64,000 nt of DNA from Streptomyces kanamyceticus (GTDB lineage Bacteria; Actinomycetota; Actinomycetes; Streptomycetales; Streptomycetaceae): NCBI RefSeq assembly GCF_008704495.1, contig NZ_CP023699.1, forward strand, positions 5,146,001 to 5,210,000. The letters are read 5' to 3'. The notes under the pieces are model-generated. The model saw only the letters and a list, made by a program, of their open reading frames with translations, had not been told where the DNA came from and made no database searches. The position numbers and the translations under genes were made by a program. Every line of letters starts with the position of its first letter. Within the stretch, counting starts at the first letter, position 1. Of this stretch, positions 24,610-38,083 are shown one piece after another.

Positions 24610-24682
24610 GCACTCGTAGCTTAACGGATAGAGCATCTGACTACGGATCAGAAGGTTGCAGGTTCGAATCCTGCCGAGTGCA
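24610..24682 (+). tRNA. tRNA-Arg(ACG), element integration site
   Basis: 73 nt: acceptor GCACTCG/CGAGTGC, discriminator A, anticodon stem TCTGA/TCAGA around CTACGGA (anticodon ACG), T-loop GTTCGAATC. From position 24641 onward the gene is also the first copy of the 44-bp att core, so its 3' half was restored by the incoming element. Confidence 0.93.
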
Positions 24683-24684
24683 CA
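24641..24684 (+). repeat. att core copy 1 (attL in tRNA-Arg)
   Basis: 44 bp beginning CTACGGATCAGAAGG and ending CCGAGTGCACA, identical to the copies at 30979 and 35083. It covers the anticodon loop to just past the tRNA 3' end, the usual target of tyrosine integrases. Confidence 0.92.
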
Positions 24685-24689
24685 CAGGT

Positions 24690-24719
24690 CAAAGGCCCCG
24701 GATCTCTCCGGGGCCTTTG
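24690..24719 (+). terminator. terminator just inside element 1
   Basis: AAAGGCCCCGGA (24691-24702) pairs with TCCGGGGCCTTT (24707-24718), with one more C-G pair outside. It lies 7 bp after the tRNA end, on element DNA, so the element brought a terminator for the tRNA it rebuilt. Confidence 0.75.
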
Positions 24720-24732
24720 GCGTTTCAAGGGC

Positions 24733-24756
24733 GTACAGCAGCGAAGTACAGCAACC
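24733..24756 (+). repeat. left 24-bp direct repeat, likely integrase arm site
   Basis: Identical to 30873-30896. It begins GTACAGCAGCGAAGTACAGC and contains GTACAGCA twice. It lies 49 bp inside att copy 1, just after the integrase stop codon. In the circular form it would flank the core on one side. Confidence 0.7.
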
Positions 24757-24764
24757 GGCTTCGA

Positions 24765-25997
24765 CTAGTCGGTGCCGCTGCCTCCCATCGCGTCCGACAG
24801 CTTGCCGATCGCGGCGCGCACCTCCTCCTCGCTCGCTTCGGCGTAGACCTCCATCGTCATGGCGATCTGGGAATGACGGAGGATGCGTTGCGCGACCTTC
24901 GGGTGCACCTTCAGCGCGACCAGGAGCGAACTGCATGTGTGCCGGGTGTTCCGCAGCGGGATGACCCGGACGCCAGCGCGACGGGCCCGCAGGGCGAACA
25001 TCCGGGTGAGGTTGCCCGGTTCGATCGGGGTGCCGTACTTCGTCGTGAAGACCAGTCCGACAGTGTCCTGCCAGAGCTCCCCGGCCGCTTTCCGGTCGCC
25101 GATCTGCTGTGCGCGGCGCATCCGAAGTGCCTTGGCGCAGAGCCCCGGCAGGGGCAGGAAGTCGTCGGATTCCTCGGTCTTGGTCTCGCGGTGGAGGATC
25201 TCCCGCCCAGCCCGCTGGATCTGGTGATCTACGTAGATCTCACCGGTCTCGAAGTCGACCGACTTCCAGGTCAGGCCCAGCACCTCACCACGGCGAAGAC
25301 CGAGGCACAGCACGAGCATCCAGGCTGCGAACAGGTGATCTCCGCGAGCGGCGCAGTCCGCGAGGAACCGGCCCGCTTCGGCAACCGACCACGGCTTGAT
25401 CCTCTTGCGCCGAGGCTTGGGGACCCTGACCAGAGAGGCCACGTTCTTGCTGATCTCTTCCTCGGCCACGGCATGCGTGAGAGCCGCCCGGAGGGCATCG
25501 CGAGCCGCTTGGACGACGCGTCGTGACGGGTGAGCCTCGCAACACTCGCCGATGGCGCAGCACCGCTGAGCCTCGCGCCGACGCTTGGCGTCCTTGCCCT
25601 GGACGCAGCACTGGCAGGTGGCCGCGAGCTTGTTGATCCACTCACGCACGTCCCGGACGGTGAGCTTGTCGAGCCGCTTCGCGCCAAGGTGCGGATTGAT
25701 GTAGAGCCGCACGGAGCCCTCGTACGAGACGTACGTCAACGGTGCGAGGTTCGGCTTGACGATCTCGCCGAGCCAGTACGCGAGGAAGACAGAGAGGGTC
25801 CGGTGCCGCGTGACCACCGGCCCGTTCTTGGCCTCGGTGTGCAGCTTGATCCACTTATCGTGGACCTCTTCACGGGTCTTGCCGTAGACGTACTTGCGCT
25901 TGCGCTTGCCGTCCGGGGTGTCGACCCAGACGTACGCGGCGAAGCCGTTCTTGTACGGGTAGATCGAACCCTCACCATTCGCACGCTTGCCGCTCAT
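24765..25997 (-). CDS. int: tyrosine site-specific integrase
   Basis: 410 residues. Residues 1-55 are an arm-binding N-terminal part (GEGSIYPYKNGFAAYVWVD), 65-190 the core-binding domain and 200-400 the catalytic domain. Catalytic residues visible: Arg235 (GLRRGE), Arg352 and His353 (RNTRHT), His375 (LRHSQ) and the nucleophile Tyr385 (MEVYAEAS). The box II His is replaced by Arg349. An insert at 128-153 holds seven Cys (CQCC, RCC, ECC) and may bind metal. It catalyses integration between attP and the 3' end of tRNA-Arg. Its ATG overlaps the excisionase stop, and its 3' end faces the att core. Confidence 0.92.
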   Translation of the reverse strand: MSGKRANGEGSIYPYKNGFAAYVWVDTPDGKRKRKYVYGKTREEVHDKWIKLHTEAKNGPVVTRHRTLSVFLAYWLGEIVKPNLAPLTYVSYEGSVRLYINPHLGAKRLDKLTVRDVREWINKLAATCQCCVQGKDAKRRREAQRCCAIGECCEAHPSRRVVQAARDALRAALTHAVAEEEISKNVASLVRVPKPRRKRIKPWSVAEAGRFLADCAARGDHLFAAWMLVLCLGLRRGEVLGLTWKSVDFETGEIYVDHQIQRAGREILHRETKTEESDDFLPLPGLCAKALRMRRAQQIGDRKAAGELWQDTVGLVFTTKYGTPIEPGNLTRMFALRARRAGVRVIPLRNTRHTCSSLLVALKVHPKVAQRILRHSQIAMTMEVYAEASEEEVRAAIGKLSDAMGGSGTD

Positions 25998-26200
25998 GCT
26001 GACACCCCCTCAGCTTCGGAGGTGACGCGCCGGACGTAGTCGTCGACCCATTCCGGCAGGATGCGCCGGTTGCGGCCGACCTTCACGGAGCGGATCTCTC
26101 CGGTGAGTACGAGCATCTTGGTCTTGGAGAGGCCGAAGCCGAGCATGGCCGCGACGTCCGCCACGGTGTGCCACTTCGGCTGGATCACGGTCGTGGTCAT
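25994..26200 (-). CDS. xis: excisionase-like helix-turn-helix protein
   Basis: 68 residues. It has the MerR/Xis-like winged HTH of plasmid excisionases: WHTVADVAAMLGFGLSKTKM, then VLTGEIRSVKVGRNRRILPEWVDDYV. It should bend att DNA and direct the integrase toward excision. It is wedged between rep and int, overlapping both by 4 bp, so the three proteins are translationally coupled as in pSAM2-like elements. The ATG at 26200 is chosen because upstream in-frame sequence lies inside rep. Confidence 0.88.
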   Translation of the reverse strand: MTTTVIQPKWHTVADVAAMLGFGLSKTKMLVLTGEIRSVKVGRNRRILPEWVDDYVRRVTSEAEGVSA

Positions 26201-27618
26201 GCTGCGAGTTCCTCCCATTCGAGCTGGTCTTGCCGGACTTCGCGTGCGATCTCTCGGTTCAGTCGCATCTCCTTTGCGATCGTGGCGGCGAGCCAGGACT
26301 CTCCCGGGGTGTGGCCTTGTCCGGCGTAGGTCCAGTGGGCGAGCACGAGCGTGGAGCCCTCCGAGTCGTCGAGATCTTCGGGAAGGCCCCGCTCGCGGCG
26401 TTCCTGGCGGGCGCGGTAGTCGGCGCGGACCTGACGACGTTCGGACAGGGTGGTGGAGTAAGCGCGCGACTTGGTCATGAAGTGCCCGCGGAAGCCGAGC
26501 ATGTGAGCCCAATGCCACAACAGCCGATCCGGGTAGGCGTCATCGAGCGTCCGGCAGGCTTCGATCAAGTGGCGCGTGTGCGCGGGCAGGGACAGCTTGT
26601 CGAGCTCGGAGAGCTCCCCGATCCGGCGGTCCACGGTCTCGGTCGTCTCAGCGGCCTTGGTGGCGTACTTGGCGACGTAGGAGGCGACTGCCGTATCAGT
26701 CAGCTCCACCCCGTCCATGCTGCCGATGGGCTGCACGTCGACCTGTGAACCCCACCGCAGCTCTCGGGAGGGGAAGGCGCCGACGGACGGCACCGGCACG
26801 GCCACCCGGGCGGCAGCGGCACGGATCGCGTCGTCCAGGAGGTCGACGGTGGCCCAGGACGGGGGCGGGGAGTCGGGCCCGTCGGGACCGTCCAGGCGCA
26901 CCACGGCGTGGAAGTGCACGGCGCCGCGTTTCTGGAATTCGGCGACCTTGCCGAAGGAGACCCGGCACTCTTCCTTCATGGCCGACTGGCTCAGCCCGGC
27001 ACGGGCGGCGACTTCCCGGCGCAGGTAGATCGTGAACCGGCGCCACAGATCCCCGGCATGGTTGTTCCACAGCACCGCACCCGCGTAGTCGTACCGGCCA
27101 GAGTCGAGGGCCGTGCCGAGTGCCGGGTCATCGTCGGCGTGGGAGCTCCCGCAGCGGCACCGTCCGGAAGCGGGCCGGTTGTGCACGGGCCCGAACGAGG
27201 GTGCGGTCAGGGTGGCGAACACCCCGGGGTGCTGGCGGATCTCTCCGGAGATGCCCATCCGGCTGTCGCCGGTGATCCCGGCACGGATCAGGTGGTACAC
27301 GTCCCCGGCGTACGTCCAGGCGCAGGCCGGGCAGCGCGAGGCACGACGGTTGCCGCAGGCGACCCGGAGCATGCCACCCGGCTCAGCCTCCGTACTGTAG
27401 GCGTAGAGGACATCCCCGGACTTGGCGTCCCGGGTGGTCGTCTGGCCCATCAGGCGGATCGGGTGCGCGCAGCCCCCGGTACGGCGGACCTGCTCTTGCC
27501 AGCGCTCGAAGCCCGGGGCGTTGGCCACCCGTAAGAGATCAGCGAGCGTGAGTGGATCGGTGCCCAGGGAGGCCGCAGCACCGGCCACGGCCTCCGGGGC
27601 GATGGGGAAGACCGTCAC
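26197..27618 (-). CDS. RepSA-like rolling-circle replication initiator
   Basis: 473 residues. A zinc-finger-like N-terminal region (CGNRRASRCPACAWTYAGDVYHL) is followed by the HUH metal site GAVHFHAVVRLDG (His235, His237) and a downstream SYVAKYATK segment whose Tyr314 or Tyr318 should be the nicking nucleophile. This order is that of the RepSA family of pSAM2 and relatives. It would nick the element's double-strand origin after excision and drive rolling-circle copying. GTG start overlapping the preceding stop (GTGA); stop overlapping the xis start (ATGA). Confidence 0.88.
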   Translation of the reverse strand: MTVFPIAPEAVAGAAASLGTDPLTLADLLRVANAPGFERWQEQVRRTGGCAHPIRLMGQTTTRDAKSGDVLYAYSTEAEPGGMLRVACGNRRASRCPACAWTYAGDVYHLIRAGITGDSRMGISGEIRQHPGVFATLTAPSFGPVHNRPASGRCRCGSSHADDDPALGTALDSGRYDYAGAVLWNNHAGDLWRRFTIYLRREVAARAGLSQSAMKEECRVSFGKVAEFQKRGAVHFHAVVRLDGPDGPDSPPPSWATVDLLDDAIRAAAARVAVPVPSVGAFPSRELRWGSQVDVQPIGSMDGVELTDTAVASYVAKYATKAAETTETVDRRIGELSELDKLSLPAHTRHLIEACRTLDDAYPDRLLWHWAHMLGFRGHFMTKSRAYSTTLSERRQVRADYRARQERRERGLPEDLDDSEGSTLVLAHWTYAGQGHTPGESWLAATIAKEMRLNREIAREVRQDQLEWEELAA

Positions 27619-28355
27619 GCCGTCACCGCCCGGAGTGGCACGACCGGGGCGGGCGTGCAGGGCTCAGCGCTCATGACGAGGTGATCGAGGCTGGCCAGGT
27701 AGCCACCGGTCAGCGGGGCCGGGCCCAGACGCCGCAGGTGCAGGACCGGAGCCAACGAGGGGATCATGCCGTCCACCGGGGTGGAGACCAGCAGGTCATC
27801 GTCGGCGCGCAATACGTCAGCGACGAGCCCGGCATGGGTGGCGATCTGGATGCCGGGATGGTCGGCCAGCGCCAGCAATGCGTCAGCGATCTGGAGAGCG
27901 CGGCCGGTCAGCGTTTCGGGGATCACCACGCGCACCCGGACCCCGCAGGCCGCCTTGTCGGCGAGCAGCGCGGGCAGGTCACCGACCACATGGGCCACGA
28001 AGGCGAGGTTGGCCACGGCGAGATCCAGGGTGGCCGTAGCGGAGTCGAGCACCTGCCGCCACAGGTCCATGGGGACCATCGAGCGGGTCGCGTAGGAGGC
28101 GACCACCTCAGCCTGCGGAGCGACGACCGAACGGCGGCGCTCACCCATGACGGGCCACAGGTGGTAGGCGTCGGCGTCCAGGCGCCGCGCGGCAGCGTGT
28201 GCGTGCCGGGCATGCGGCGTGCGGCCGGTGGACAGCCACCGTTCGACACTCTTGGGGTCAATACCCAGGTGACCGGCCAGGGCCTCGATCGTCACGTTCG
28301 CGGCCGTCATCGCACCGCGCAGCCGCTCATTCCCGGTGATCGTCGCGGTAGTCAC
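27615..28355 (-). CDS. HTH protein with C-terminal phospholipase-D-like domain
   Basis: 246 residues. N-terminal Xre-type HTH: GAMTAANVTIEALAGHLGID then PKSVERWLSTGRTP (about 14-46). The C-terminal part (105-230) alternates hydrophobic strands and helices (TLDLAVANLAFVAHVVGDL, GVRVRVVIPE, DDDLLVSTPVDG) like the DUF5919/PLD-like region found in other streptomycete HTH proteins, but I see no HKD catalytic motif. Commonly next to rep in such elements; likely regulatory. GTG start; both ends overlap neighbours by 4 bp. Confidence 0.65.
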   Translation of the reverse strand: MTTATITGNERLRGAMTAANVTIEALAGHLGIDPKSVERWLSTGRTPHARHAHAAARRLDADAYHLWPVMGERRRSVVAPQAEVVASYATRSMVPMDLWRQVLDSATATLDLAVANLAFVAHVVGDLPALLADKAACGVRVRVVIPETLTGRALQIADALLALADHPGIQIATHAGLVADVLRADDDLLVSTPVDGMIPSLAPVLHLRRLGPAPLTGGYLASLDHLVMSAEPCTPAPVVPLRAVTA

Positions 28356-28714
28356 GCGGCCACCTCCACCGGGGCAGGAAGCCCGGGGGTGAATGACTGG
28401 GCGCGGTAGCCGGGCATCGGCTCATCCTCAGGACCGATCTCGACCGGGAAGACGATCTCGCTGCACACGCAGGGGATCACCAGCCCGACCGTGCCGGACA
28501 CGGAACCGTCATCGTCGATCAGGGTTCCGGCGCCCTTGCAGTCCTCACAGACCAGGAAGCCAAACGAAGGGTCGGAGGGACAGAGCGTGCCCCCGTCATG
28601 GGTGAGCACCTCCACCTCATCCACCAGGACACGCGTCCACAGCGGGAAGCGGTCCGAGCGGCAACCGGGGCAGGCCGGGCGGGGCAGACCGTTCAAAATC
28701 GATCGCGTCATCAC
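28352..28714 (-). CDS. hypothetical Cys-rich zinc-ribbon-like protein
   Basis: 120 residues, first gene of the element 1 operon. It has CPGCRSDRF near the N terminus, CEDCKGAGTLIDDDGS in the middle and CVC later, so it probably binds zinc as a DnaJ-like or rubredoxin-like ribbon. No catalytic motif is seen. GTG 28714 or ATG 28711 can start it; GAGGG lies 9-12 bp upstream. It overlaps the HTH/PLD gene by 4 bp. Function unknown; such small Cys-rich proteins are common upstream of rep in actinomycete elements. Confidence 0.65.
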   Translation of the reverse strand: MMTRSILNGLPRPACPGCRSDRFPLWTRVLVDEVEVLTHDGGTLCPSDPSFGFLVCEDCKGAGTLIDDDGSVSGTVGLVIPCVCSEIVFPVEIGPEDEPMPGYRAQSFTPGLPAPVEVAA

Positions 28715-28838
28715 GCGGCACCACCCTCGGGCGGGAGGTGCAAAGCGTTCAGCGTCGCAGGCATCATGGAGATTCCCTCCGGGGACGAAGGGGCGGCGGC
28801 TTGCTTGGCGGTAGGGCGCCGCCCCAGGCGAACGTGTA

Positions 28839-28914
28839 CTAGCTCACGTTCATGTATACGCGTACTAGTACGCGATGGCAAGGCTATTTGGGGGTACCCT
28901 TGTCCGTGAGCTAG
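28839..28914. promoter_or_regulatory. operator cluster between element operon and GntR gene
   Basis: A 16-bp perfect palindrome, CGCGTACTAGTACGCG (28859-28874), is flanked by an inverted pair CTAGCTCACG (28839-28848) and CGTGAGCTAG (28905-28914). All share ACTAG/GCTAG half-sites. GntR regulators bind such dyads, so this is the likely switch that keeps the int-xis-rep operon silent. Confidence 0.6.
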
Positions 28915-28933
28915 CAGACGATCTGGAGGAGAG

Positions 28934-29671
28934 ATGACACCGCGAGTTCAGCGGGCCGCGCCGCCGTTCATGCAGATCGCGGACCACTTTCGACAGCAGA
29001 TCATTGACGGTGTACTGACCCAGGACACGAAGTTGCCGTCAGTTGCCGACATTGCTGAGGAGTGGGGTGTAGCTACGGCTACCGCCGCCAAGGGGCTGAA
29101 GCAGCTCCAGGCGGAGGGGTACGTGCGCGCGTCGACCCAAGGAACCTTTGTCGACCTTGGGCGTAAACTCACAAGTGGCTCTGATCGTTTGCAGCTCCAG
29201 CGAGCCACGGGGAGCGGATTCCGCCCCGGAGAGCGAGTCGAGATCGTTGCAGCTTCTCTTATGCCAGCACCGGCCGAAGTGGCCGAAGCGCTAGGACTCG
29301 AAGAGGGAGCTTCCGTGATCCGGCGCCAGCGTCGGTACCTGGACGACGAAGGGGTAATCACCCTCTCTACGTCTTGGCTTTCAGGAGGGCTGGCGGAGCA
29401 GGCCCCGGAGTTGGCCGTAGCTGAGACTCTGCCGAAGATGACATTCGGGCTGATCGAAGATCGCACAGGGCGCCGTACGGTTCGGCGTCGCGATGTTGTG
29501 GGGTTGAAGCCCGTACCCGAAGACGCCGCAGAGCTCCTCGGTGTCGAGGCTGGGTCACCTGCCCTCACCATGACCAACTATTACTGGGACCAAGACGGAT
29601 CCATGGTCGAGTACGCCACCGACTACCTAGGGGCTGGCCGACAGCTCACGGCGGAGTACGACATCACCTGA
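28934..29671 (+). CDS. GntR/UTRA regulator, KorSA-like
   Basis: 245 residues with a strong ribosome site (GGAGGAGAG). N-terminal winged helix: PPFMQIADHFRQQIIDGVLT, LPSVADIAEEWGVATATAAK, GLKQLQAEGYVRAS. C-terminal UTRA domain (about 80-240) with VIRRQRRYLDDEGVITLSTSW and YYWDQDGSMVEYATDYL. In pSAM2 the GntR protein KorSA represses the activator of replication and transfer; this protein is divergent from the replication operon and probably does the same through the dyads at 28839-28914. The UTRA domain suggests a small-molecule ligand. Confidence 0.87.
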   Translation: MTPRVQRAAPPFMQIADHFRQQIIDGVLTQDTKLPSVADIAEEWGVATATAAKGLKQLQAEGYVRASTQGTFVDLGRKLTSGSDRLQLQRATGSGFRPGERVEIVAASLMPAPAEVAEALGLEEGASVIRRQRRYLDDEGVITLSTSWLSGGLAEQAPELAVAETLPKMTFGLIEDRTGRRTVRRRDVVGLKPVPEDAAELLGVEAGSPALTMTNYYWDQDGSMVEYATDYLGAGRQLTAEYDIT

Positions 29672-29787
29672 TGTGAGGGGCTGGCCGTTACAGGTTTCTC
29701 TACCTCATCAAGGCTCGCTGCGCTCGCGGCCGCCCGTGTCGACCGCGAGCGTCCACCATCGGGTATGAGGCTTCGGCCCCTGGTGAC

Positions 29788-30156
29788 GTGGGCAAGCCCG
29801 CCGCGCACCGCCACCGCGATCCGACCTTGCAGGGGAAAAGACCTCAGCAGCCGTAGGACCACAACCGCGCGCACGAGCACACAAGACCCCCATCAAGACC
29901 ACGGACCCGAGCCGTCCCAAAGGGATCAGTCCGAAGAACCGAGGGCCCCGAACGGGGCGGCGCCGGTCGGCCGCCGCCCCGCCGCCTCCATGTCTACGCC
30001 AACGGCCGCGTGTCGCCGTCCGCCCGTCGCCCCCAAGGGGCCACAAACCCAGCACCGGGTCACAGGGCACAGGGGATTGCCGCACAGCAGGCCACCGACG
30101 CTTTGGGTTACCGAATAGGCCGGATCGCGGTGGCGGTGCGCGGCGGGCTTGCCCAC
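29788..30156. repeat. 36-bp perfect inverted repeat flanking 297 bp
   Basis: 29788-29823 and 30121-30156 are exact reverse complements over 36 bp (arm begins GTGGGCAAGCCCGCC). The enclosed, apparently non-coding 297 bp includes a 9-bp GC stem (29954-29962 with 29972-29980). Six-frame reading gives only implausible Pro/Arg-rich peptides. With a rep gene nearby, this may be a replication or transfer origin, or a decayed insertion with terminal repeats. Confidence 0.7.
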
Positions 30157-30441
30157 TCCCCGTGGCCAGGCCCCACACCCGGATGATCGACACCACCGAC
30201 GCCATGGGTACCCCCGTGCCGCACGCCTCGAAGGCAGCGAACCGACCACCCCACCGCACCCGAGCAGGCCCGTGCAGGCTGCCGACGTCCAGAGCTTCGA
30301 GCGCGAGCCCGCAGCAGGCGACCGCCCCGCCGATCGGTCCACCACGCGCCGCGGGGAGCAGGAGGCGGAGGGAAGGGGAGGTAGGGAGAGGGTGGGGATG
30401 GTGGGGGCTGGGGCGGTCGGCTCCACGGCTTTAGGCAGCCA

Positions 30442-30550
30442 CTTTGGGGCGAGCCTCTAAGATCATGGCCCCGATTCGGACCTTGCGGGCAGGTCCAGTG
30501 ACTGCCCGAATCGCGATGAGCTTAAGGGGCCATGATCACTCGCCCCAAAG
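30442..30550. repeat. nested hairpin, about 109 bp, possible single-strand origin
   Basis: CTTTGGGGCGAG (30442-30453) pairs with 30539-30550, and GATCATGGCCCC (30461-30472) with 30526-30537. Inside are GATTCG/CGAATC and GGGCAG/CTGCCC pairs. Extruded as single strand this forms a long multi-stem hairpin, as in the lagging-strand origins of rolling-circle replicons. Confidence 0.6.
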
Positions 30551-30653
30551 CAGCTCCCGCCCAAAGCCGCTCCACCGACCTCAGTCGCGATCCATCCCGC
30601 CAAGGGAGCATCCTGGAGAGTGAGAGCCTCAGGCCGGAGCACCGGAGGTCACC

Positions 30654-30857
30654 ATGGGTACATGGGTTGATCAAATCTTTGGAGCTGCACAAGCGCAGCA
30701 AGGCGGAGTGGTCCGAAGATCAATTGACGACATCGAGCGGTTTACTTCTCTCGAAGAGATCGTTCGCATCGCGCGAGGGCGTAAGTTCCACGTCCTGGAG
30801 ACCGGGGATCAACTGGTGATCCTTTGCCACGAAGGCGAACTAAAGATCCACTGCTAG
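30654..30857 (+). CDS. small hypothetical protein in element 1
   Basis: 67 residues, ATG with GGAGG five bases upstream. It is soluble: MGTWVDQIFGAAQAQQGG, then IDDIERFTSLEEIVRIARGR and a strand-rich end (KFHVLETGDQLVILCHEGEL). Codon use is less G/C-biased than the host, in keeping with transfer. It sits between the nested hairpin and the right arm site, a place where such elements often carry small unidentified genes. No family recognised. Confidence 0.6.
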   Translation: MGTWVDQIFGAAQAQQGGVVRRSIDDIERFTSLEEIVRIARGRKFHVLETGDQLVILCHEGELKIHC

Positions 30858-30872
30858 GTCCCGCAGGTTGCG

Positions 30873-30896
30873 GTACAGCAGCGAAGTACAGCAACC
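30873..30896 (+). repeat. right 24-bp direct repeat, likely integrase arm site
   Basis: Identical to 24733-24756 and 83 bp inside att copy 2. A further CAGCAACC follows one base on. Together the pair would bracket the core in the circular attP. Confidence 0.7.
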
Positions 30897-30978
30897 ACAG
30901 CAACCGAGCATGACTGGTAACGCCTGTTAGCCCCCTTCAGGCAGCCTGTATGACCGTCAATGTCTGATCTCTGTAGAG

Positions 30979-31022
30979 CTACGGATCAGAAGGTTGCAGG
31001 TTCGAATCCTGCCGAGTGCACA
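30979..31022 (+). repeat. att core copy 2 (junction of the two elements)
   Basis: The same 44 bp as copy 1, here without the 5' half of a tRNA. Upstream sequence differs entirely, so this is an attachment-site junction, not a tRNA gene. Confidence 0.92.
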
Positions 31023-31027
31023 GTGGA

Positions 31028-31063
31028 CCAGAGGCCCCGACGAGAAATCGTCGGGGCCTCTGG
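31028..31063 (+). terminator. terminator hairpin next to att copy 2
   Basis: A perfect 16-bp stem (CCAGAGGCCCCGACGA with its complement) closes a GAAA loop, 5 bp after the core. It occupies the same place relative to the core as the hairpins at copies 1 and 3. Confidence 0.75.
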
Positions 31064-31222
31064 CTTTTGCGATGGTGACAGTGGCTGACGGCAGCCGCCC
31101 GTCCCACCTACCCGGCCATCGCCGTGCAGTCCCCGACCCCAATCCGGGCGGGACACCGGCCACAGCCGCCAGCGCCGGCCGCGTGGGTCAGCGGACCATT
31201 CATCGGGCTGGAGAACGACACA

Positions 31223-32563
31223 TCAACCGACCAGTGCCGGAGGTGCGAGCGTCCGCGCGCGGTCGTACAGATCACGGGCCGACGCGTTCCGCAGATGCGG
31301 GCGGATGAGGCCGAACATGGCTTTCACGCGGTCGTCGGCCCGTCCGGACTGCACCATGGGGTAGTCGTCGAGCGCTTGGTGCCAGGTGGTGCAGGCAGCT
31401 TCCAAGTGCCCTATCTCCAACTGACGCTCAGCGAGCAAGCCGCGTCGATGGACCCGCGTACGACGGTAGACGCTCGGGCGGAGATCATCTGCATGGCGCA
31501 TGGCCTCAACTGCCCCTGGCCTGTCGCCGAGTTCGTAGCGCACTTGGCTGGCGTGGTAGTTGAGCGACGACGGATCGTACGAGCCGAACGCCTTGCCGCG
31601 GGACTCGGCACGGTCCATGGCGGCTTCCGCCTCCCGGATATACCGCAGCGCGCTCGTACGGTCGCCGGTTTGGGCAGCGGTGTGCGCTTGCTGTCCGGCG
31701 AGGAAAGCCCGCATCCGAGGCCCGGCTTTCGGGGATGCTGCGGCGGCAGCGTCCGCCAGCTCCATGGCTTTGGACCCATGACGCAGGTCGACCGCCTGCA
31801 CGCTCATGCCACGCAAGGTCGTGCAGTACGTGAGGTGATCCTCTGCTGCCCCAGCCAGCTCCAGGGCCTTGATGTAGTAGCGCTGCGCGAGCCCGTGGAG
31901 TCCTTCGTCCACGGCCATGTAGCCAGTCAGGTAGAGCAGATCCGATGCGGCGGACTGCATCGCTTGCCGGACATCCTCGGGGGCGTCGGCGCGCAGATAC
32001 GCGGCGACCGTGTTGACCATGAACGAGGCCGCCATGGGGCGTGCGTGACGGCCGCCGAACTGGTCATCCAGGTCTGAGACGCGCTCGGTCATCGCTATGA
32101 CCATGTCCACTTCGTTCATGCCGATGCGCGACGTGCGGCCGGACTCCACGGCCTCGGCGCGTCCGATGACGTCGGGCCATCCGGGGATCGTCAAGGCGAC
32201 CGAGAACAGGCCCGCACCGAGGACTCCGCGGCGGGACGGGTCCATGTCTTGCCTCCCCAGGTCGATCAGCCCTTCCACGGTATCCATGGACGCAGGGGAG
32301 CGACCGAGGGGAACGGGCAGGCCCGCTTCAGCATGCGTGACCGGGCGGCCCAGCCGACGGGAGAAGGCTTCGAGGATGCAGCTCCGCACGGCATCGCGCG
32401 GAACGGTGCCGCCAAGCCAGTGGCTCACGGCCGACTCGTCGTAGCGCAGGGGAGTGCCGGTTTCCGTGCCTATGCGGTTCACGGCCCGTGCGAACTGGCG
32501 GTACGTCCAGCGGCTCTCGGTGAGCAGGTGGCCGAGCGCTGCGTTCGGTTCGCGCTTCGCCAT
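31223..32563 (-). CDS. HTH-TPR transcriptional regulator of element 2
   Basis: 446 residues. The N-terminal HTH (about 5-60: ALGHLLTESRWTYRQFARAV, YDESAVSHWLGGTVPRDAV) is of the type seen in streptomycete NsdA/BldD-like regulators. Residues 130-440 are all-helical with tetratricopeptide-like repeats (GLAQRYYIKALELAGAAEDH, DRTSALRYIREAEAAMDRAE). Such proteins sense peptides or protein partners. The ATG at 32563 is preferred over TTG 32572 because GGGGAG precedes it. Divergent from the small gene at 32725; three GCTTTCAAG repeats lie in its leader. Confidence 0.8.
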   Translation of the reverse strand: MAKREPNAALGHLLTESRWTYRQFARAVNRIGTETGTPLRYDESAVSHWLGGTVPRDAVRSCILEAFSRRLGRPVTHAEAGLPVPLGRSPASMDTVEGLIDLGRQDMDPSRRGVLGAGLFSVALTIPGWPDVIGRAEAVESGRTSRIGMNEVDMVIAMTERVSDLDDQFGGRHARPMAASFMVNTVAAYLRADAPEDVRQAMQSAASDLLYLTGYMAVDEGLHGLAQRYYIKALELAGAAEDHLTYCTTLRGMSVQAVDLRHGSKAMELADAAAAASPKAGPRMRAFLAGQQAHTAAQTGDRTSALRYIREAEAAMDRAESRGKAFGSYDPSSLNYHASQVRYELGDRPGAVEAMRHADDLRPSVYRRTRVHRRGLLAERQLEIGHLEAACTTWHQALDDYPMVQSGRADDRVKAMFGLIRPHLRNASARDLYDRARTLAPPALVG

Positions 32564-32590
32564 GGCTCTCAACTCCCCACGCTCTTGCGC

Positions 32591-32617
32591 GCTTTCAAGG
32601 CTTTCAAGGCTTTCAAG
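32591..32617. repeat. three tandem 9-bp repeats
   Basis: GCTTTCAAG is repeated three times without spacers, 28 bp upstream of the HTH-TPR start codon. A 9-bp period puts the copies nearly on one DNA face, as expected for an operator array or iteron. Confidence 0.75.
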
Positions 32618-32724
32618 TCCTGAGGGTGCTGCAACGGTACCGCCGTGCGTGGTCGCACGGTTGCGTAGAGCACACGGAAGATCGGCGAACCGCTCGCCAC
32701 AGACATCCCCCGAGGGGCTGAGTC

Positions 32725-32958
32725 ATGAGAAACGAAGTGCGGGAAGAGCTTGCCCGGATGACCGAGGAACAGGGCACGGACGGCGTGCTGAAGGTCGACA
32801 GCTTGGATGCCTACGAGCTGCCCCCTGGATCCATGAAGTACCCGCCGTGCCAGTGCCCCCAGCACCGAGCCGCCCCGGCTCAAGAGGCCGCCAGCGACGC
32901 GCACGGGGGCAACGCCGGTGAGGCCGGCATGGCCGCCGTGAGCTCGATCACCCCATGA
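32725..32958 (+). CDS. small acidic/Cys-containing protein of element 2
   Basis: 77 residues, ATG with GAGGGG upstream. A helical N terminus (MRNEVREELARMTEEQGTDG) is followed by PPGSMKYPPCQCPQHRAA, where Cys-x-Cys and His could bind a metal, and an Ala/Gly-rich tail. It is divergent from the HTH-TPR gene and followed by a strong hairpin. In other streptomycetes, small genes next to HTH-TPR regulators can be their signalling partners, but I see no family match here. No secretion signal. Confidence 0.55.
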   Translation: MRNEVREELARMTEEQGTDGVLKVDSLDAYELPPGSMKYPPCQCPQHRAAPAQEAASDAHGGNAGEAGMAAVSSITP

Positions 32959-32961
32959 ACT

Positions 32962-33006
32962 CCCGTCCGACTGCCGTTGCGTGACGGCGGTTGGCAGCCG
33001 GACGGG
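32962..33006 (+). terminator. hairpin between two element 2 genes
   Basis: CCCGTCCGACTGCC (32962-32975) pairs with GGCAGCCGGACGGG (32993-33006) with one mismatch. It starts 3 bp after the upstream stop codon and ends 38 bp before the next start. Confidence 0.6.
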
Positions 33007-33043
33007 TCCACCGATGCACCAACCGACGAAGGAGAGTGCAGCA

Positions 33044-33625
33044 GTGTCCGCAACGCTAGTACGGCCCGCCCCGGAGGTCGTCGCTCGGCGAGCCCGCGAG
33101 ATCCTCGCGATCGTCGAGGGCGACCGGGAGTTCGACCGCTTGCGCACGGCGTGCGCCAAGTACGACGAAGATTGGCAGTGCTTCATGGGCTACGCCCTGG
33201 TGGACGGGTTCGACGTCGCGAAGGACACCGAGCCCCTGTTCCCCGAGGCCATGCGTGCCATGGCGATCAAGTCGGCCATCTACGAGATGACGGACGACGA
33301 GGAGGCCGCCGAGATCCCCGTGTCCGTCCCCGTGGACGAGATGGTCCACGCACTCGCCGCTCAGTTCACCGTGCTCTGCCGCATCCAGGCCCGCACCGGG
33401 ATCAAGTTCGTGCACGCCACGGACCGCGAGGCCATCGGCGAGTGGGACCACGGTGACTACACCCACCAGGTGTACCGCTCGGCGTGGGGCCCGATGAACG
33501 AGCGCTACTGGTTCGACAAGGACGAGACCGCCAGGCGCAAGGCCATCGTGGCGGCCAAGTACGAGCCGCTCGGCATCCTTGATGGTGGCCGCCGTTTTGC
33601 CCCCGGATTCCCCATGGCCAGCTAG
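33044..33625 (+). CDS. hypothetical protein of element 2
   Basis: 193 residues; GTG start supported by GGAGAG 7 bp upstream. Soluble and acidic, mostly helical: VVARRAREILAIVEGDREFD, AKYDEDWQCFMGYALVDGFD, then VHALAAQFTVLCRIQARTGI and a strand-rich end (GDYTHQVYRSAWGPMNERYW). No known motif and no membrane segment. It is convergent with the Cys-containing gene at 33632, leaving only 6 bp. I do not recognise it. Confidence 0.65.
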   Translation: MSATLVRPAPEVVARRAREILAIVEGDREFDRLRTACAKYDEDWQCFMGYALVDGFDVAKDTEPLFPEAMRAMAIKSAIYEMTDDEEAAEIPVSVPVDEMVHALAAQFTVLCRIQARTGIKFVHATDREAIGEWDHGDYTHQVYRSAWGPMNERYWFDKDETARRKAIVAAKYEPLGILDGGRRFAPGFPMAS

Positions 33626-33631
33626 GGGGGG

Positions 33632-34033
33632 CTAGTTGAAGGCGCGGCGCAGTGCCAGGGTCGCATCGACTTCCGGGAAGGCCCGCCGGATCTCACGGTC
33701 GGCCAGGTCGATCAGCAGCTCCAGCGCGCCCGGTGCTGCGCCGTGCACCAACTCCCGTAGGTACTCATCGAGTTCGGCGACATCATCGGGCAGCGAGACG
33801 CCCGCCAGCAGAGCCACGCCGTCCGTCTTGTACGGCGCGGGCGGTAGTCCCACCTTCTCCGGGTGCACGCAGACAGGCACACCACGCAGGGTGTACCTGT
33901 GGCCGTCATCTGGATTGAAGGGGCATTCGCGAGACGGACCCTCGGCCACGTCGAACTCGCCGAGAGGGAAGCGGCGGGACGGGCAGATGCCGCATGCGCG
34001 GTGGCCGTCACTGGAGACGAAAGCCTGAGCCAT
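33632..34033 (-). CDS. hypothetical protein with N-terminal Cys motif
   Basis: 133 residues. The start reads MAQAFVSSDGHRACGICPSR, with CGIC plus later ECPFN and VPVCVHPEK, which could form a zinc site. The C-terminal half is helical (DDVAELDEYLRELVHGAAPG). ATG 34033. It lies downstream of the nuclease-like gene on the same strand with 68 bp between them, so the two may be cotranscribed. Function unknown. Confidence 0.6.
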   Translation of the reverse strand: MAQAFVSSDGHRACGICPSRRFPLGEFDVAEGPSRECPFNPDDGHRYTLRGVPVCVHPEKVGLPPAPYKTDGVALLAGVSLPDDVAELDEYLRELVHGAAPGALELLIDLADREIRRAFPEVDATLALRRAFN

Positions 34034-34101
34034 GGCCCGCAGGGTAACGTCTTCCGTTTGGTTGCACGGGCGCCTAAGTAACGGTGAGAGCGAGCGGTTA
34101 C

Positions 34102-34911
34102 CTACCCACCGAGACGCTTGAGGAAGGTGGCCACGAACTTCTCCACCTCTTCCTTCTTGGTCGAGTCCCGTACGTCGAGGCGGTCAACGTAGTGGACACC
34201 GGCGTTCTGCATGAGGCGGTCTCTGCTCTTATCGGAGGACGCACGCTCCTTGTGATGCGGGCCGTCAATCTCGATGACACCAGCACGGCCCCGATAGGTG
34301 ACGAGCAGGTCCGGTTCATACGTGTGGCCACGGACACGCATGGCGCCGAGCGGGACTATGCCTATCGTGTCGTCGTCGGGAAGGGCTGCCTGTCGTTCCT
34401 TTAGGACCCTGTAGACGCCCTGTTCCCACACATTGGTGAAGTGAAGGCCGTCCTCCATCGGGTGTTGGGGTTCGAGTCGAACGCGTCGAGCTTGATTGGT
34501 TGGACTTGGGCCAGTCGCGGCACGCAACTGTTTGCGCCAATCGACGCTGACTTCTGGGATGGTCGGCAGAACCTCCATGAGACCGACCGACAGGTCTCGA
34601 TTCCTCGCGGTGACCGTGCGCATGGCCTCGCGTATCCGCTCCTGGGCTTCCTCCGTGAAGCGGGGGAGCAAGTGCGGCTCTACCTCCAACACCGCCTTGT
34701 AGGTGTCTATCCCGAAGTCCGAATCCCAAAGAGTCAGGTGCGCCGTGGTCACGTCTACCGCGATGCCCGCAGTTTCGGCGTCGCCCTGCCTGTGGAGCAG
34801 CGTGGCGGCAGCCCCGAGTACCTGCTCGCCTCGGAGCCGGTCGAGCTCACTTTCGGAAAGCCCCTCAGGGTTCGCCAGGATCTGATCCAGTGAGCGCAGG
34901 TCATCACTCAT
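34102..34911 (-). CDS. putative DUF559-like PD-(D/E)XK nuclease
   Basis: 269 residues. The C-terminal third has a restriction-endonuclease-like core: YEPDLLVTYRGRAG (Asp201), GVIEIDGPHHK (Glu214, Asp216) and SDKSRDRLMQNAGVHYVDRL, the pattern of DUF559/Vsr-related nucleases. The N-terminal 160 residues are helical and unassigned, perhaps a partner- or DNA-binding part. The ATG at 34911 is chosen as the first after a non-conserved upstream stretch; no strong ribosome site is visible. As cargo of an integrative element next to att copy 3, it may be a defence or DNA-processing nuclease; this is inference. Confidence 0.6.
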   Translation of the reverse strand: MSDDLRSLDQILANPEGLSESELDRLRGEQVLGAAATLLHRQGDAETAGIAVDVTTAHLTLWDSDFGIDTYKAVLEVEPHLLPRFTEEAQERIREAMRTVTARNRDLSVGLMEVLPTIPEVSVDWRKQLRAATGPSPTNQARRVRLEPQHPMEDGLHFTNVWEQGVYRVLKERQAALPDDDTIGIVPLGAMRVRGHTYEPDLLVTYRGRAGVIEIDGPHHKERASSDKSRDRLMQNAGVHYVDRLDVRDSTKKEEVEKFVATFLKRLGG

Positions 34912-34976
34912 AGTCAGATGGTGGCATCTGCCACTGACAACTAGGCAGAGCTCGGTGCCGATTGGCGTCGTGACGG

Positions 34977-34997
34977 TGACGGCAATCCTGACGGCAA
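34977..34997. repeat. paired TGACGGCAA repeats near right end of element 2
   Basis: TGACGGCAA occurs at 34977-34985 and 34989-34997, and TGACGGCA at 31086-31093 near the opposite end. These could be arm sites for the integrase that first inserted element 2, differing from those of element 1. Confidence 0.35.
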
Positions 34998-35082
34998 CGA
35001 CGGCACACGCAGGCTGGTGACCACCACCGCCAGCGGCCACCGTTCCAGGTGGGAGAGCCCTCTCCCGGCCCCCCGCCCCAAC

Positions 35083-35126
35083 CTACGGATCAGAAGGTTG
35101 CAGGTTCGAATCCTGCCGAGTGCACA
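35083..35126 (+). repeat. att core copy 3 (right end of the array)
   Basis: The third identical 44-bp copy. What follows is ordinary chromosome, so this is the outer right boundary of the tandem array. Confidence 0.92.
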
Positions 35127-35132
35127 GCAGAT

Positions 35133-35166
35133 CGAAGGCCCTGACGAAAAATCGTCAGGGCCTTCG
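35133..35166 (+). terminator. hairpin after att copy 3, likely the original tRNA-Arg terminator
   Basis: CGAAGGCCCTGACGA (35133-35147) pairs perfectly with 35152-35166 around AAAA. Lying on host DNA beyond the array, it is probably the terminator that followed tRNA-Arg before any insertion. Confidence 0.7.
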
Positions 35167-35205
35167 GTCGTTCTTGTGTGGCTGTTCTGTGCGACTGCGG
35201 CCGTC

Positions 35206-35235
35206 TTGACATGGGCAGCACAATGGTCCGGACCA
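35206..35235 (+). promoter_or_regulatory. chitinase promoter with DasR-type operator
   Basis: TTGACA (35206-35211) is followed by TGGTCCGGACCA (35224-35235), a perfect palindrome matching the Streptomyces dre/chitinase-repeat pattern TGGTCTAGACCA at 10 of 12 positions. It predicts repression by the GntR regulator DasR and release by GlcNAc-derived sugars. Confidence 0.65.
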
Positions 35236-35266
35236 ATTGATGTCCGTACCCGAGGGGTGGTTGCCG

Positions 35267-36019
35267 ATGTCCAGGCGAGGCTCAAGAGGTGTGACGGCCG
35301 TGCTGGCCGTGCTGATGGTGCTGGGTGGGTTCGTGTTCGGCGGGGTGCCCGGTGGGGGGTCCGTCGCGGTGGCCGCCGGTGGCGGGGCGGCGCACAAGCC
35401 GCGGTTCGTCGTCAGTGAGCGGCAGTTCGAGCGGATGTTCCCGGAGCGGAACTCCTTCTTCACGTACGAAGGTCTCGTGGCGGCCACGCGCGCGTACCCG
35501 GAGTTCGCGCGCACCGGCGGCAAGGCGCTGCGCAAGCGCGAGGCCGCCGCCTTCCTGGCCAACGTCAGCCATGAGACCGGCGGGCTCTTCTACGTCGTGG
35601 CGCAGAACAAGGACACGTATCCGATCTTCTGCGACGAGACGCAGCCCTATGGGTGTCCGGCCGGGCACGACGCCTACTACGGGCGCGGCGCCATCATGCT
35701 GAGCTGGAACTTCAACTACAAGGCGGCCGGTGACGCCCTCGGGATCGATCTGCTGAACAACCCCTGGCTCGTCGCGCGCGATCCGGAGGTCGCCTGGATG
35801 ACGGCCCTTTGGTACTGGAACACGCAGAGCGGCCCCGGCACCATGAGCGGGCACGAGGCGATGGTGAAGGGCGCGGGCTTCGGCGAGACCATCCGCAGCC
35901 TGAACGGGACCGCCGAGTGCGACGGCGGCAACCCGCGGCAGATGCGGCACCGCGTCGACCTGTACGTGGGGTTCAGCGAGGTGCTGCGCGTCCGGCCGGG
36001 GCGGCACCTCACCTGCTGA
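35267..36019 (+). CDS. secreted GH19 chitinase
   Basis: 250 residues with a signal peptide (GVTAVLAVLMVLGGFVFGGV). The rest is a bacterial GH19 catalytic domain: VSERQFERMFPERNSFFTYE at the start, FLANVSHETGGLFYV with the catalytic acid Glu103, and YYGRGAIMLSWNFNYKAAGD, the GH19 signature. There is no chitin-binding module, so it should cleave accessible chitin. ATG 35267 (GAGGGG 9 bp upstream) is chosen over ATG 35240, which has no ribosome site and almost abuts the operator. The stop codon lies inside a 21-bp tandem repeat. Confidence 0.9.
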   Translation: MSRRGSRGVTAVLAVLMVLGGFVFGGVPGGGSVAVAAGGGAAHKPRFVVSERQFERMFPERNSFFTYEGLVAATRAYPEFARTGGKALRKREAAAFLANVSHETGGLFYVVAQNKDTYPIFCDETQPYGCPAGHDAYYGRGAIMLSWNFNYKAAGDALGIDLLNNPWLVARDPEVAWMTALWYWNTQSGPGTMSGHEAMVKGAGFGETIRSLNGTAECDGGNPRQMRHRVDLYVGFSEVLRVRPGRHLTC

Positions 36020-36070
36020 GCCGTGCCGGTCACCTGCTGAGCCGTGCCGGTCATCCGCTGAGCCGTGCCA
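36010..36070. repeat. 21-bp tandem repeat spanning two stop codons
   Basis: CACCTGCTGAGCCGTGCCGG-T occurs twice exactly and a third time with changes. The first unit holds the chitinase stop and the third the stop of the convergent response regulator. Confidence 0.75.
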
Positions 36071-36731
36071 GGCCCGACTCCCAGGCCCAGGCCGCGATGC
36101 CGACCCGGTTGCGGACCTGCAACTTGCCCTGAATGTTGGCGATATGGGTCTTCGCCGTACCCGGCGAGATGAAGAGCGCCGCACCGATCTCGGTGTTCGT
36201 GAGGCCGTCCGCGACCAGCCGGGCTATCTCCTCCTCCCGGGTGGTGAGGGGGGAGGGGGTGGCGTCTTGTGCGGGGGCGGATTCGGGAGTGGGTGTCGTG
36301 CGCAGGAGGCGCAGTGTGATCTGCGGGCTGATCAGCAGGTCGCCCGCCATCGCCGCGCGTACGCCCTCGATGAGGAGCCCCGGGCCCGAGCGCTTGAGCA
36401 GGAAGCCGCAGGCGCCGTCGCGCAGGGCCGTGCGGACGTAGTCGTCGTGGTCGAAGGTCGTGACGACCAGGACGCGGGTCGGGTCCGCGACGTCGGGGCC
36501 CGCGAGGCGGCGGGTGACCTCCAGGCCGTCGAGGCCCGGCATGCGGATGTCCGCGATGAGCAGGTCGGGGCGCAGCCGGTGCGCGAGCTCCACCGCGGCC
36601 AGGCCGTCGGCCGCCTCGCCGATCACCGTCATGTCCGGCTGGGAGTCGAGGATCAGGCGGAATCCGCTCCGGACGTCGTCCTGGTCGTCGGCGAGGACGA
36701 TGCGGGTCTGCGGGGCGGCGGTCGTCGTCAC
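36051..36731 (-). CDS. NarL/LuxR-type response regulator
   Basis: 226 residues. Receiver domain (9-125) with the acidic pair in VLADDQD, phospho-acceptor Asp61 (LIADIRMPG), Thr in VVTTFD and Lys in FLLKRS. A Pro/Ala-rich linker precedes a LuxR-type HTH (LTTREEEIARLVADGLTNTE, SPGTAKTHIANIQGKLQV). It should bind DNA when phosphorylated by the histidine kinase encoded just upstream, whose stop overlaps this start by 4 bp. The regulon is unknown. Confidence 0.92.
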   Translation of the reverse strand: MTTTAAPQTRIVLADDQDDVRSGFRLILDSQPDMTVIGEAADGLAAVELAHRLRPDLLIADIRMPGLDGLEVTRRLAGPDVADPTRVLVVTTFDHDDYVRTALRDGACGFLLKRSGPGLLIEGVRAAMAGDLLISPQITLRLLRTTPTPESAPAQDATPSPLTTREEEIARLVADGLTNTEIGAALFISPGTAKTHIANIQGKLQVRNRVGIAAWAWESGLARLSG

Positions 36732-37882
36732 TGCTTCGGCTCCTGGGTGGGGGTGAGTACGGGTGTGGGGGTGGGTGCGGCGGTTCTGGGGAGTGTTGCT
36801 GTCAGGCGCCAGCCGTCCGTGCCGTGCGGGCCCGCCGTGAGGGTGCCGCCCAGGGCCTCCGCGTGTTCCGTCAGGGCGGGGAGGCCCAGGCCGCCGCGGG
36901 TGGCGCGTCTGCGGGGGAGCGGTACGCGGTGCGTGCCGGGGGCGTCGTTGGACACCTGGAGCTCCACCGACGTGGGCGTGGGGGTCAGGGTGATCTTGAC
37001 CAGGGTGGCCGCGGGCGCGTGTCTGCGGATGTTCGTCAGTGCCTCGACGACGATGCGGTACGCGGCCGCGCCCGCCTCGCGGGAGAGCGCGTCGGCGGTT
37101 TCCGGAGGCAGCCTGAGCTCGACCCCGATTCCCCCGATTCCCCCGGCGCCCCCGGCGGCCGTGAACTCGTCCACCAGGGAAGGGAGGTGGTCGAGTCCGG
37201 GCAGCGCCACGGCGGGGGAGTGCGCCGGGCCGTGCAGCATCTCCACCGTGCGGTCCATCGACTCAAGCGCGTTCAGGCCCGCCTTCTCGATGCGCTCGAG
37301 GGCGAGCATCGCCTGCGCCGGATCCGTGGCGGCGACGAACCGGGCCGCCTGCGCCTGGACGACGATGCCGCTGATGTCGTGCGCCACGAAGTCGTGCAGG
37401 TCGCGGGAGAGTTGGAGCCGCTGGGCGCGGCGCGCCTCGGTGATGTCGGTCCTGCGGCGCAGCTCCACGCGGCGCGGGTAGGCGCCCGCCGCCACCGCGG
37501 CGACGGCGGGCAGCAGCCAGAACGCCGCCGCGCCCGTCCGTTCCAGGAATGACCCGTCCACCAGCGGGAACGGCCACGCGGCGGTCGCCGCCGCGGTGAG
37601 CGGGGCGACGGCCCTGGCCTCGCGCCACGGTGACCAGCGGACCACGGCGGCCAGCAGGAGCAGCAGCAGCGCGGCCTCCGCGAGCTTCCAGGCGGGGGCG
37701 GTGCGCAGGCCGACCGCCGGGTAGCCGAAGGCGGTCGCCAGGGAGAGGGTCGCGCAGATCGCGGCGGGCGGCGCGAGCCGGTCCAGGCGCCCGCGGGCCA
37801 GCGGCACGGCCGACGCGCAGAGGGCGGCCGCGGTGGGCAGTGCGCCGAGTGCCAGTGCAAGTGCTGTCGTCGTCATCGTCAT
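36728..37882 (-). CDS. NarL-type sensor histidine kinase
   Basis: 384 residues. Four to five N-terminal membrane helices (1-135) with no large extracellular domain, then HisKA_3 with phospho-His163 in SRDLHDFVAHDISGIVV, and a HATPase domain (VVEALTNIRRHAP N box, GGLGLPALTEHAEAL G box). The C-terminal tail is a Pro/Thr repeat. It probably senses a membrane or envelope signal and phosphorylates the downstream regulator. Several in-frame ATGs lie at the start; 37882 follows GGGGGAG. Confidence 0.9.
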   Translation of the reverse strand: MTMTTTALALALGALPTAAALCASAVPLARGRLDRLAPPAAICATLSLATAFGYPAVGLRTAPAWKLAEAALLLLLLAAVVRWSPWREARAVAPLTAAATAAWPFPLVDGSFLERTGAAAFWLLPAVAAVAAGAYPRRVELRRRTDITEARRAQRLQLSRDLHDFVAHDISGIVVQAQAARFVAATDPAQAMLALERIEKAGLNALESMDRTVEMLHGPAHSPAVALPGLDHLPSLVDEFTAAGGAGGIGGIGVELRLPPETADALSREAGAAAYRIVVEALTNIRRHAPAATLVKITLTPTPTSVELQVSNDAPGTHRVPLPRRRATRGGLGLPALTEHAEALGGTLTAGPHGTDGWRLTATLPRTAAPTPTPVLTPTQEPKQ

Positions 37883-37940
37883 CGTCGTCTCCCCCGTCGG
37901 GCCCCTGGTGGGCCCGCTGGTCAGCGTACGAGGGGGAGAT

Positions 37941-37966
37941 CAGAGGGTGCCCTCTGCCGAACGGCA
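37941..37966. promoter_or_regulatory. overlapping dyads between kinase and secreted-protein genes
   Basis: CAGAGGG-TG-CCCTCTG (37941-37956) overlaps TGCCGAACGGCA (37955-37966). The half TGCCGAACG recurs inverted at 38047-38055 (CGTTCGGCA). A plausible binding region for the divergent two-component regulator. Confidence 0.4.
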
Positions 37967-38083
37967 TAGGGATCGGGGAAGCCGTCCGGATCTCTGTGCT
38001 GATCGGCGGATGGGCCTGGGTGGTGGCCGCGGGCGAGGCTGTTCCTCGTTCGGCAAGGAGCCGTAACGGGAGGGGAGTTCAGC

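Follow-up and report, generated by a model that had tools for sequence, protein, structure and literature searches.

Which pieces of an integrated array bounded by identical attachment (att) cores can still be mobilized, and by which integrase, is the question raised by a locus of Streptomyces kanamyceticus, studied here in a stretch of 64,000 nucleotides (contig NZ_CP023699.1 of assembly GCF_008704495.1, positions 5,146,001 to 5,210,000), hereafter the window. At the 3' end of a tRNA-Arg gene, a left unit of 6.3 kb (24641-30978) and a right unit of 4.1 kb (30979-35082) stand in tandem between three copies of one core, here att1, att2 and att3. We propose, with a probability of about 80%, that this array is a heterotypic accretion, in which an actinomycete integrative and conjugative element (AICE) with arm-type sites of one class (class II) has decayed to the 4.1-kb remnant on the right, an element of another class (class I) stands alongside it on the left, and att1 and att2 would form the only matched pair.

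Three identical cores with different arms

A 15-mer has exact matches at 24641, 30979 and 35083, compared with an average of 0.10 matches in shuffled sequences when two mismatches are allowed, and the core starting at these positions is identical over 44 bp in the three copies, with sequence that differs on either side of each. In the whole assembly, which is one contig of 10,133,897 bases, these three are the only copies with up to three mismatches. ARAGORN and Rfam detect a complete tRNA-Arg only at 24610-24683 (anticodon ACG according to ARAGORN), and the 5' half of the tRNA is missing upstream of the second and third cores (27 and 23 mismatches in 31 positions, respectively). The previous reading of this DNA, made without database searches (the sequence-only reading), had reported both the three identical cores and the single complete tRNA, and these searches confirm it on both points. 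A GC-rich hairpin-like stretch lies 3' of each core, its sequence differing from copy to copy.

A 24-bp pair of arms, termed class I, is repeated exactly at 24733 and 30873, once at each end of the left unit; no further site with up to three mismatches exists in the window, and shuffled sequences gave none. The arms at the two ends of the right unit are class II, one of them being half decayed. Moreover, its final 150 bp including the core match the end of a class II element by 81% in genome G002 and 79% in genome G016 (G and L numbers are our labels for genomes and loci), and when the core is left out 74 and 75 of 106 positions, respectively, still agree. The loci L078 and L106 are class II AICEs with class II arms, an integrase, a RepSA-like Rep and an FtsK-like gene.

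The arm classes were defined across relatives. Among 61 genomes of the genus, the present one included, the core occurs with up to three mismatches in 55, and in 21 there are two to four copies, spread over two contigs in G022, G035 and G060. Apart from the present genome, 54 have a match, and we fetched 52 core regions from 51 of these, leaving out G018, G035 and G060, whose cores differ by three bases, and the second core of G022, which is on another contig. The core flanks fall into three families of paired arms, class I (GTACAGCA...), class II (TGACGGCA...) and class III (TGACATCAAC...). The window, the 52 regions and a deposited circular record (L086, see below) make 54 sequences with 25 neighbouring core pairs; two pairs were unclassed, and 20 of the 23 that could be classed at both ends carry the same class at each (10 class I, 5 class II and 5 class III). 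By shuffling, such agreement averages 8.6, and 20 was reached in none of 200,000 trials.

Judged by identity, each arm class has its own integrase. In the pairs tested, over three stretches, integrases are 75-94% identical inside one class (75-90% for class I alone), and between classes the values are 42-45% (I-II), 39-50% (I-III) and 44-52% (II-III). The integrase of the left unit is 82-85% identical, nearly over its full length, to the integrases at the same core in L056, L060, L065, L079, L094, L096 and L107. Several loci retain pieces of an integrase next to class II arms, and these share 80-91% identity with the class II integrase in L093, L063, L077 and L056, 62% in L059 and 63-90% in L103. 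In L135, class III-like arms stand next to a tRNA-Ile core; because of this pairing, arm and core specificity look separable and independently exchangeable.

With regard to the right unit, no integrase was found by Pfam on its proteins or by tblastn with three integrases, and no place in it is among those listed for a class II integrase query against its own genome, where the best match, at 44%, is the class I integrase of the left unit. A related unit in G006 (L093) carries a class II arm, a gene 82-88% identical to that of the NsdA-family regulator of the window, and integrase fragments with 89-90% identity to the class II integrase versus 35-57% to class I, and likely represents an intermediate state that precedes the loss of the integrase. 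The right unit, being bounded by att cores and devoid of integrase, resembles a cis-mobilizable element (CIME), but its ends are by sequence class II and not the class I of its neighbour. Compared with what is expected of a class II AICE remnant, it has an arm pair at both ends but no integrase or integrase fragments inside. Because its arms differ in class from those of the left unit and no class I arm adjoins the third core, we prefer to view the right unit as what is left of another AICE lineage after loss of the integrase, rather than as a CIME derived from the left unit.

Several points weigh against this reading. At its left end, the right unit has a class II arm that scores exactly at the threshold that was set, a score also reached by 14 of 2,493 random 100-nt stretches of the window outside the array, every one of them called class II. 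The arm consensus was written after the flanks had been inspected, so that the both-ends test was not blind. Three of the 23 classed units have mixed ends (L093 and L104, II/I; L105, I/III), and they may reflect deletion across neighbours, hybrid elements or some cross-recognition; the class I-like far end of the G006 unit is one of these. Lastly, array order is no proof of arrival order, as a newcomer could use the distal core.

The left unit and a group of RepSA elements lacking a transfer gene

The integrase, excisionase and RepSA genes of the left unit are uninterrupted open frames, and no such match appeared among the right-unit proteins tested, in line with the gene contents that the sequence-only reading had assigned to the two units. 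Like an AICE, the left unit has a tyrosine integrase beside one att site and a RepSA-type initiator. However, no FtsK/SpoIIIE transfer gene was found in it by tblastn with three transfer-protein queries or by Pfam on its proteins, a lack on which the sequence-only reading was silent, and for this reason the left unit is not a full AICE. Having its own integrase, att cores at both ends and no transfer machinery of its own, it corresponds to an integrative mobilizable element, and three loci of the same genome that combine Rep and FtsK (L130, L131 and L132) are possible helpers.

It seems that the left unit is not alone in this respect. The helix-turn-helix (HTH) protein encoded next to rep (27615-28355) was searched in genome contigs, and 78 loci were kept out of 232 relatives. 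In five of them rep lies directly beside the HTH gene on the same strand, and FtsK was found in none of the five, versus 64 of the remaining 73, some loci being cut by contig ends. A family search in five genomes also listed FtsK copies, but on numbered contigs with no traceable link to the loci, and they are left out of account here. A tree of 59 rows unites the Rep proteins of the window, L134, L135, L137 and L139 in a single clade (support 100/98), in which L134 and L137 are near copies of each other; FtsK was not detected in the neighbourhood of any member. L135 (about 6.9 kb) has complete 46-bp repeats at tRNA-Ile and L137 (about 7.0 kb) complete 73-bp repeats at tRNA-Ser. The Rep of the window groups with compact elements that lack a transfer gene (Tra-less) and are located in other sites.

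The main alternative for the left unit is that it is an AICE that has lost its transfer gene recently and does not belong to a Tra-less lineage. An FtsK-like gene is present in seven of nine relatives with the same integrase class (L060, L065, L079, L085, L094, L096 and L107) and was not found in the other two, L056 and L103. Two loci do not fit the one-clade picture: L103 falls outside the Tra-less Rep clade, and L136 has no FtsK nearby yet has a Rep that groups with Tra-positive elements, so that such a loss is possible more than once. Against a recent loss stand the shared clade with no FtsK near any member, the gene order that goes with its absence, and the complete att repeats of L135 and L137. 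On balance, we regard a recent loss as improbable, if still to be reckoned with, and favour membership of the Tra-less group.

A block of about 180 bp in the left unit, conserved in RepSA-type elements, is predicted to fold strongly, at -101 and -113 kcal/mol for its two strands with RNA parameters. There are four other copies in the genome, two of them at 97%; three of the four lie in the Rep and FtsK loci L130, L131 and L132, and the fourth locus (L129) shows only a GntR gene. A copy is present in 43 of the 78 fetched HTH-protein relatives, mostly at a similar distance from the HTH gene. No match was found in the class I AICEs L060, L065, L079, L096 and L107, and therefore the block does not simply follow Rep. 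We favour a single-strand origin or a transfer locus for this predicted structure. A miniature inverted-repeat transposable element was considered and set aside in view of the recurrence in these relatives at a similar distance from the HTH gene, although 14 of 18 plasmid records match less than half of the block, several of these matches lying some 2 kb away from the end of a large record.

A 40-bp inverted repeat, 98% complementary with its arms 289 nt apart (29788-29827 and 30117-30156), lies beyond the GntR gene of the left unit. Defence cargo was also considered and set aside, since PADLOC gave weak matches only (the best, E=0.00092, for the HTH protein, and weak CRISPR-regulator matches for the GntR protein) and none in the five right-unit proteins given.

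Predicted mobility of the two units

The cores, the arms, the integrase classes, the absent genes and the relatives at this site are observed, and the order of events, the excision, the replication and the helper-dependent transfer described here are inferred. A class II AICE would first have entered the 3' end of tRNA-Arg(ACG), later decaying to the remnant, left with the NsdA-family regulator and three or four open reading frames (ORFs) and without an integrase. The class I element would have used the same core and settled beside the remnant, and it is probably the later arrival because it is intact. Each integrase would contact the shared core together with its own paired arm-type repeats, with att1 and att2 as the sole matched attL/attR pair. 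Int and Xis would then most likely excise the left unit in circular form, with RepSA replicating this circle by the rolling-circle mode, but the circle would reach other cells only with a TraB-type protein of another AICE. The right unit would stay in place unless a class II integrase came in trans.

Attachment sites of lambda-type integrases need arms as well as cores. Because att1 and att2 are the only partners that both have class I arms, excision of the left unit alone is the supported expectation, and the sequence-only reading departs from this by letting the integrase excise the left unit, the right unit or both together: class I arms are confined, in the window, to the ends of the left unit, and excision of the right unit, or of both, is not supported. 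That the class I integrase accepts all three cores, the right unit then being a CIME, has in its favour the identity of the cores and the mixed-end units, which could reflect cross-recognition. Tandem AICEs of Frankia are moreover excised singly and together in the part of the report available (PMC3218068), and the corresponding part of PMC9513070 proposes the same for tandems of AICE and what are there termed DAICE. However, the integrases of the Frankia pair are closely related, unlike the integrases here, and the third core has no class I arm while both ends of the right unit are class II. We consider it unlikely that one integrase serves the whole array.

Origin of the right unit and the empty site

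Two proteins of the right unit, the NsdA-family regulator and that of the 133-aa ORF, have counterparts of about 80% similarity that occur together on large Streptomyces plasmids, and the one cargo-bearing plasmid whose annotation was inspected is linear. This occurrence of the cargo cassette away from the core would fit a right unit that is chromosomal sequence or a product of homologous recombination, bounded by cores incidentally. Such an origin is very improbable in view of the match of both ends to the ends of class II elements, the class II integrase fragments in the related unit of G006, the fact that this unit (L093) is the only one of the 52 fetched regions to match the right-unit interior over at least 150 nt, and the short distance from core to conserved DNA in G019.

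In G019, which has a near-empty site, the region conserved with window position 39317 starts about 76 bp past the core, and in G030 it starts about 74 bp past the last core; this spacing implies that an unoccupied tRNA-Arg allele exists in relatives. The near-empty site of G019 speaks against the array being an ancestral block, an outcome that the sequence-only reading had named as fatal to its proposal, and two tandem integrated units of RepSA type formed by accretion at tRNA-Arg remain well supported. An assembly artefact, its other stated refutation, is practically discounted by the single contig, the distinct flanks at each core copy and the multi-copy cores in 21 of 61 genomes of the genus.

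In the present genome a further 4.2 kb (35127-39315) separates the third core from the conserved region. It holds a GH19-like gene, an apparent two-component system and other DNA, and past its first 40 bp no match of at least 150 nt was found in the 52 fetched regions. A fourth att copy was sought in 35127-39400 and rejected, the best ungapped match to the core being 24 of 44 positions, while two control stretches gave 21 and 22. An empty site with the exact right flank, that is, a junction of core and GH19 gene, is absent among the matches listed for 391 other genomes of the genus.

The coordinates of all features are collected in Table 1. For the DUF559-like protein of the right unit, at least 108 homologs are listed, some of them named DUF559.

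Table 1. Features of the tRNA-Arg array, in window positions (TPR, tetratricopeptide repeat)
Feature	Position	Strand	Basis
tRNA-Arg(ACG), complete; 3' half is att core copy 1	24610..24683	+	ARAGORN, Rfam
att core copy 1, left-unit attL	24641..24684	+	sequence search
class I arm pair GTACAGCA..CGAA..GTACAGCAACC, left end of left unit	24733..24756	+	repeat search, class comparison
class I tyrosine integrase, 410 aa	24765..25997	-	PF00589, PF14659
excisionase, 65 aa	25994..26191	-	TIGR01764 above cut-off
RepSA rolling-circle initiator, 473 aa	26197..27618	-	PF20199; NF041486, 804 bits (cut-off 700)
HTH protein adjoining rep, common to Tra-less group	27615..28355	-	weak HTH_31; relatives
ORF, 120 aa, no family match	28352..28714	-	domain searches
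GntR/UTRA regulator	28934..29671	+	domain match
conserved, strongly folding block, about 180 bp; candidate single-strand origin or transfer locus	30405..30590	.	folding, relatives
class I arm pair, right end of left unit	30873..30896	+	exact repeat of 24733-24756
att core copy 2, shared as left-unit attR and right-unit attL	30979..31022	+	sequence search
half-decayed class II arm pair at left end of right unit	31072..31097	+	7/26 mismatches to L078
NsdA-family TPR regulator, right-unit cargo	31223..32572	-	NF053720, E=1.9e-134
small ORF, 77 aa, possibly not a gene	32725..32958	+	ORF list; no PADLOC match
ORF, 214 aa	32981..33625	+	ORF list, domain searches
ORF, 133 aa; hypothetical protein of similar size in same place of plasmid cassette	33632..34033	-	
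DUF559-like protein, 267 aa	34102..34905	-	weak match, E=0.0088, below cut-off; longer ORF
class II arm pair, right end of right unit	34977..35008	+	2/32 mismatches to L078
att core copy 3, right-unit attR	35083..35126	+	sequence search

Combinations of arm classes in the genus

Exact attL patterns were found in 382 genomes of the genus for class I in 57, for class II in 50 and for class III in 24. By these patterns, neither class I nor class II attL occurs twice in any of the 382 genomes, and class III attL does so in one, G148. Two different classes are present in 12 genomes (six I+II, four I+III and two II+III), in 10 of these no more than 20 kb apart on a single contig, and in G101 and G406 on separate contigs. 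Independence would predict 14.2 genomes with different classes and 8.7 with the same class twice, and 12 and 1 were observed; different classes co-occur about as chance predicts, and for the same-class deficit a Poisson estimate, which takes no account of kinship or assembly collapse, gives P(at most 1)=0.0016. Both orders occur, class I before class II here and, by coordinates, class II before class I in G230, G375 and G392. Exact patterns overlook decayed ends, and fragmented assemblies may collapse near-identical tandems; G032 and G030, both called class II by flank scoring, escaped the exact class II pattern. In G148, two class III attL (C1:4901892 and 5147920) with identical displayed sequence lie on the same strand 246 kb apart, possibly through duplication of a large segment or through accretion on a very large scale.

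It is tempting to see in the arm-type sites a stacking code, by which intact elements of different classes would pile up at one core, a second intact element of the same class would be excluded or decay, and compact Tra-less RepSA satellites, riding in such stacks and sharing a conserved palindromic locus with their Tra-positive neighbours, would borrow TraB from them. We advance this as a doubtful proposal, its probability lowered because decayed same-class neighbours exist. Under looser scoring, G004 (L105) has two class I-like attL 3.1 kb apart, the second core with five mismatches; G032 (L056) has class I integrase fragments, one at 83%, past its class I unit; and in G047 (L094) half a class I arm lies 3' of the distal core. 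A fair statement is that no adjacent same-class pair with both members intact was seen, and that decayed ones exist.

Relation to known systems and significance

The accretion of AICEs at tRNA-Arg with different integrases is already published, as far as the accessible part of that report extends: in a Streptomyces population, one to three elements with identical flanking repeats are described, with integrases of 39-88% identity and an old remnant lacking traB (PMC9513070). The present array resembles those in its place, in its different integrases and in a remnant without traB, but the same part of that source names no arm-site classes and expects that an integrase may possibly mobilize a tandem, against which the arms argue here (PMC9513070). 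According to the available part of PMC3218068, Sav3708 and Sav3728 of S. avermitilis are likewise tandem elements in tRNA-Arg with integrases of two sub-families; they are described there as AICEs, whereas neither unit of the present array yielded a transfer gene and one is without integrase. Frankia elements without tra or rep are also described in it (PMC3218068).

Two further comparisons concern the build of the units. With what we take to be the gene set of a pSAM2-type AICE the left unit shares RepSA, a tyrosine integrase, an excisionase, a GntR-family regulator and the tRNA 3' end, and it differs in that no FtsK/SpoIIIE transfer protein was found in it. In accretions of CIME and integrative and conjugative element of the ICESt1 type, the ends of the remnant derive from the neighbour's own family. 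The present array is similar in having an integrase-less, att-bounded unit beside an integrase-bearing one; unlike there, the ends of the remnant are here of another arm class.

The record L086 (NZ_CP108973.1, S. longwoodensis, 14.3 kb), deposited as a circular plasmid, carries the core of the window with one mismatch at both record ends, its first and last 50 bases being identical. It differs in having class III arms and integrase, a Prim-Pol protein and annotated traA/traB, and is likely the free circle of a class III AICE for the tRNA-Arg core, although the overlap may be an untrimmed end.

What is new here is the typing of the arms and the Tra-less group; in the literature searched, mostly open-access, nothing was found on arm classes at the tRNA-Arg site or on a Tra-less RepSA clade, which supports novelty only weakly. 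Elements in tandem at a common att core are often viewed as a pool from which any combination can be mobilized by a single integrase. If the arm class decides which cores recombine, the mobile and the stranded pieces of an array could be read from its sequence, and the counts from the 382 genomes make same-class exclusion directly testable. Conjugation in actinobacteria uses one FtsK-like protein and double-stranded DNA, and a Tra-less RepSA lineage, if true, would be a lineage of satellites of actinobacterial conjugation.

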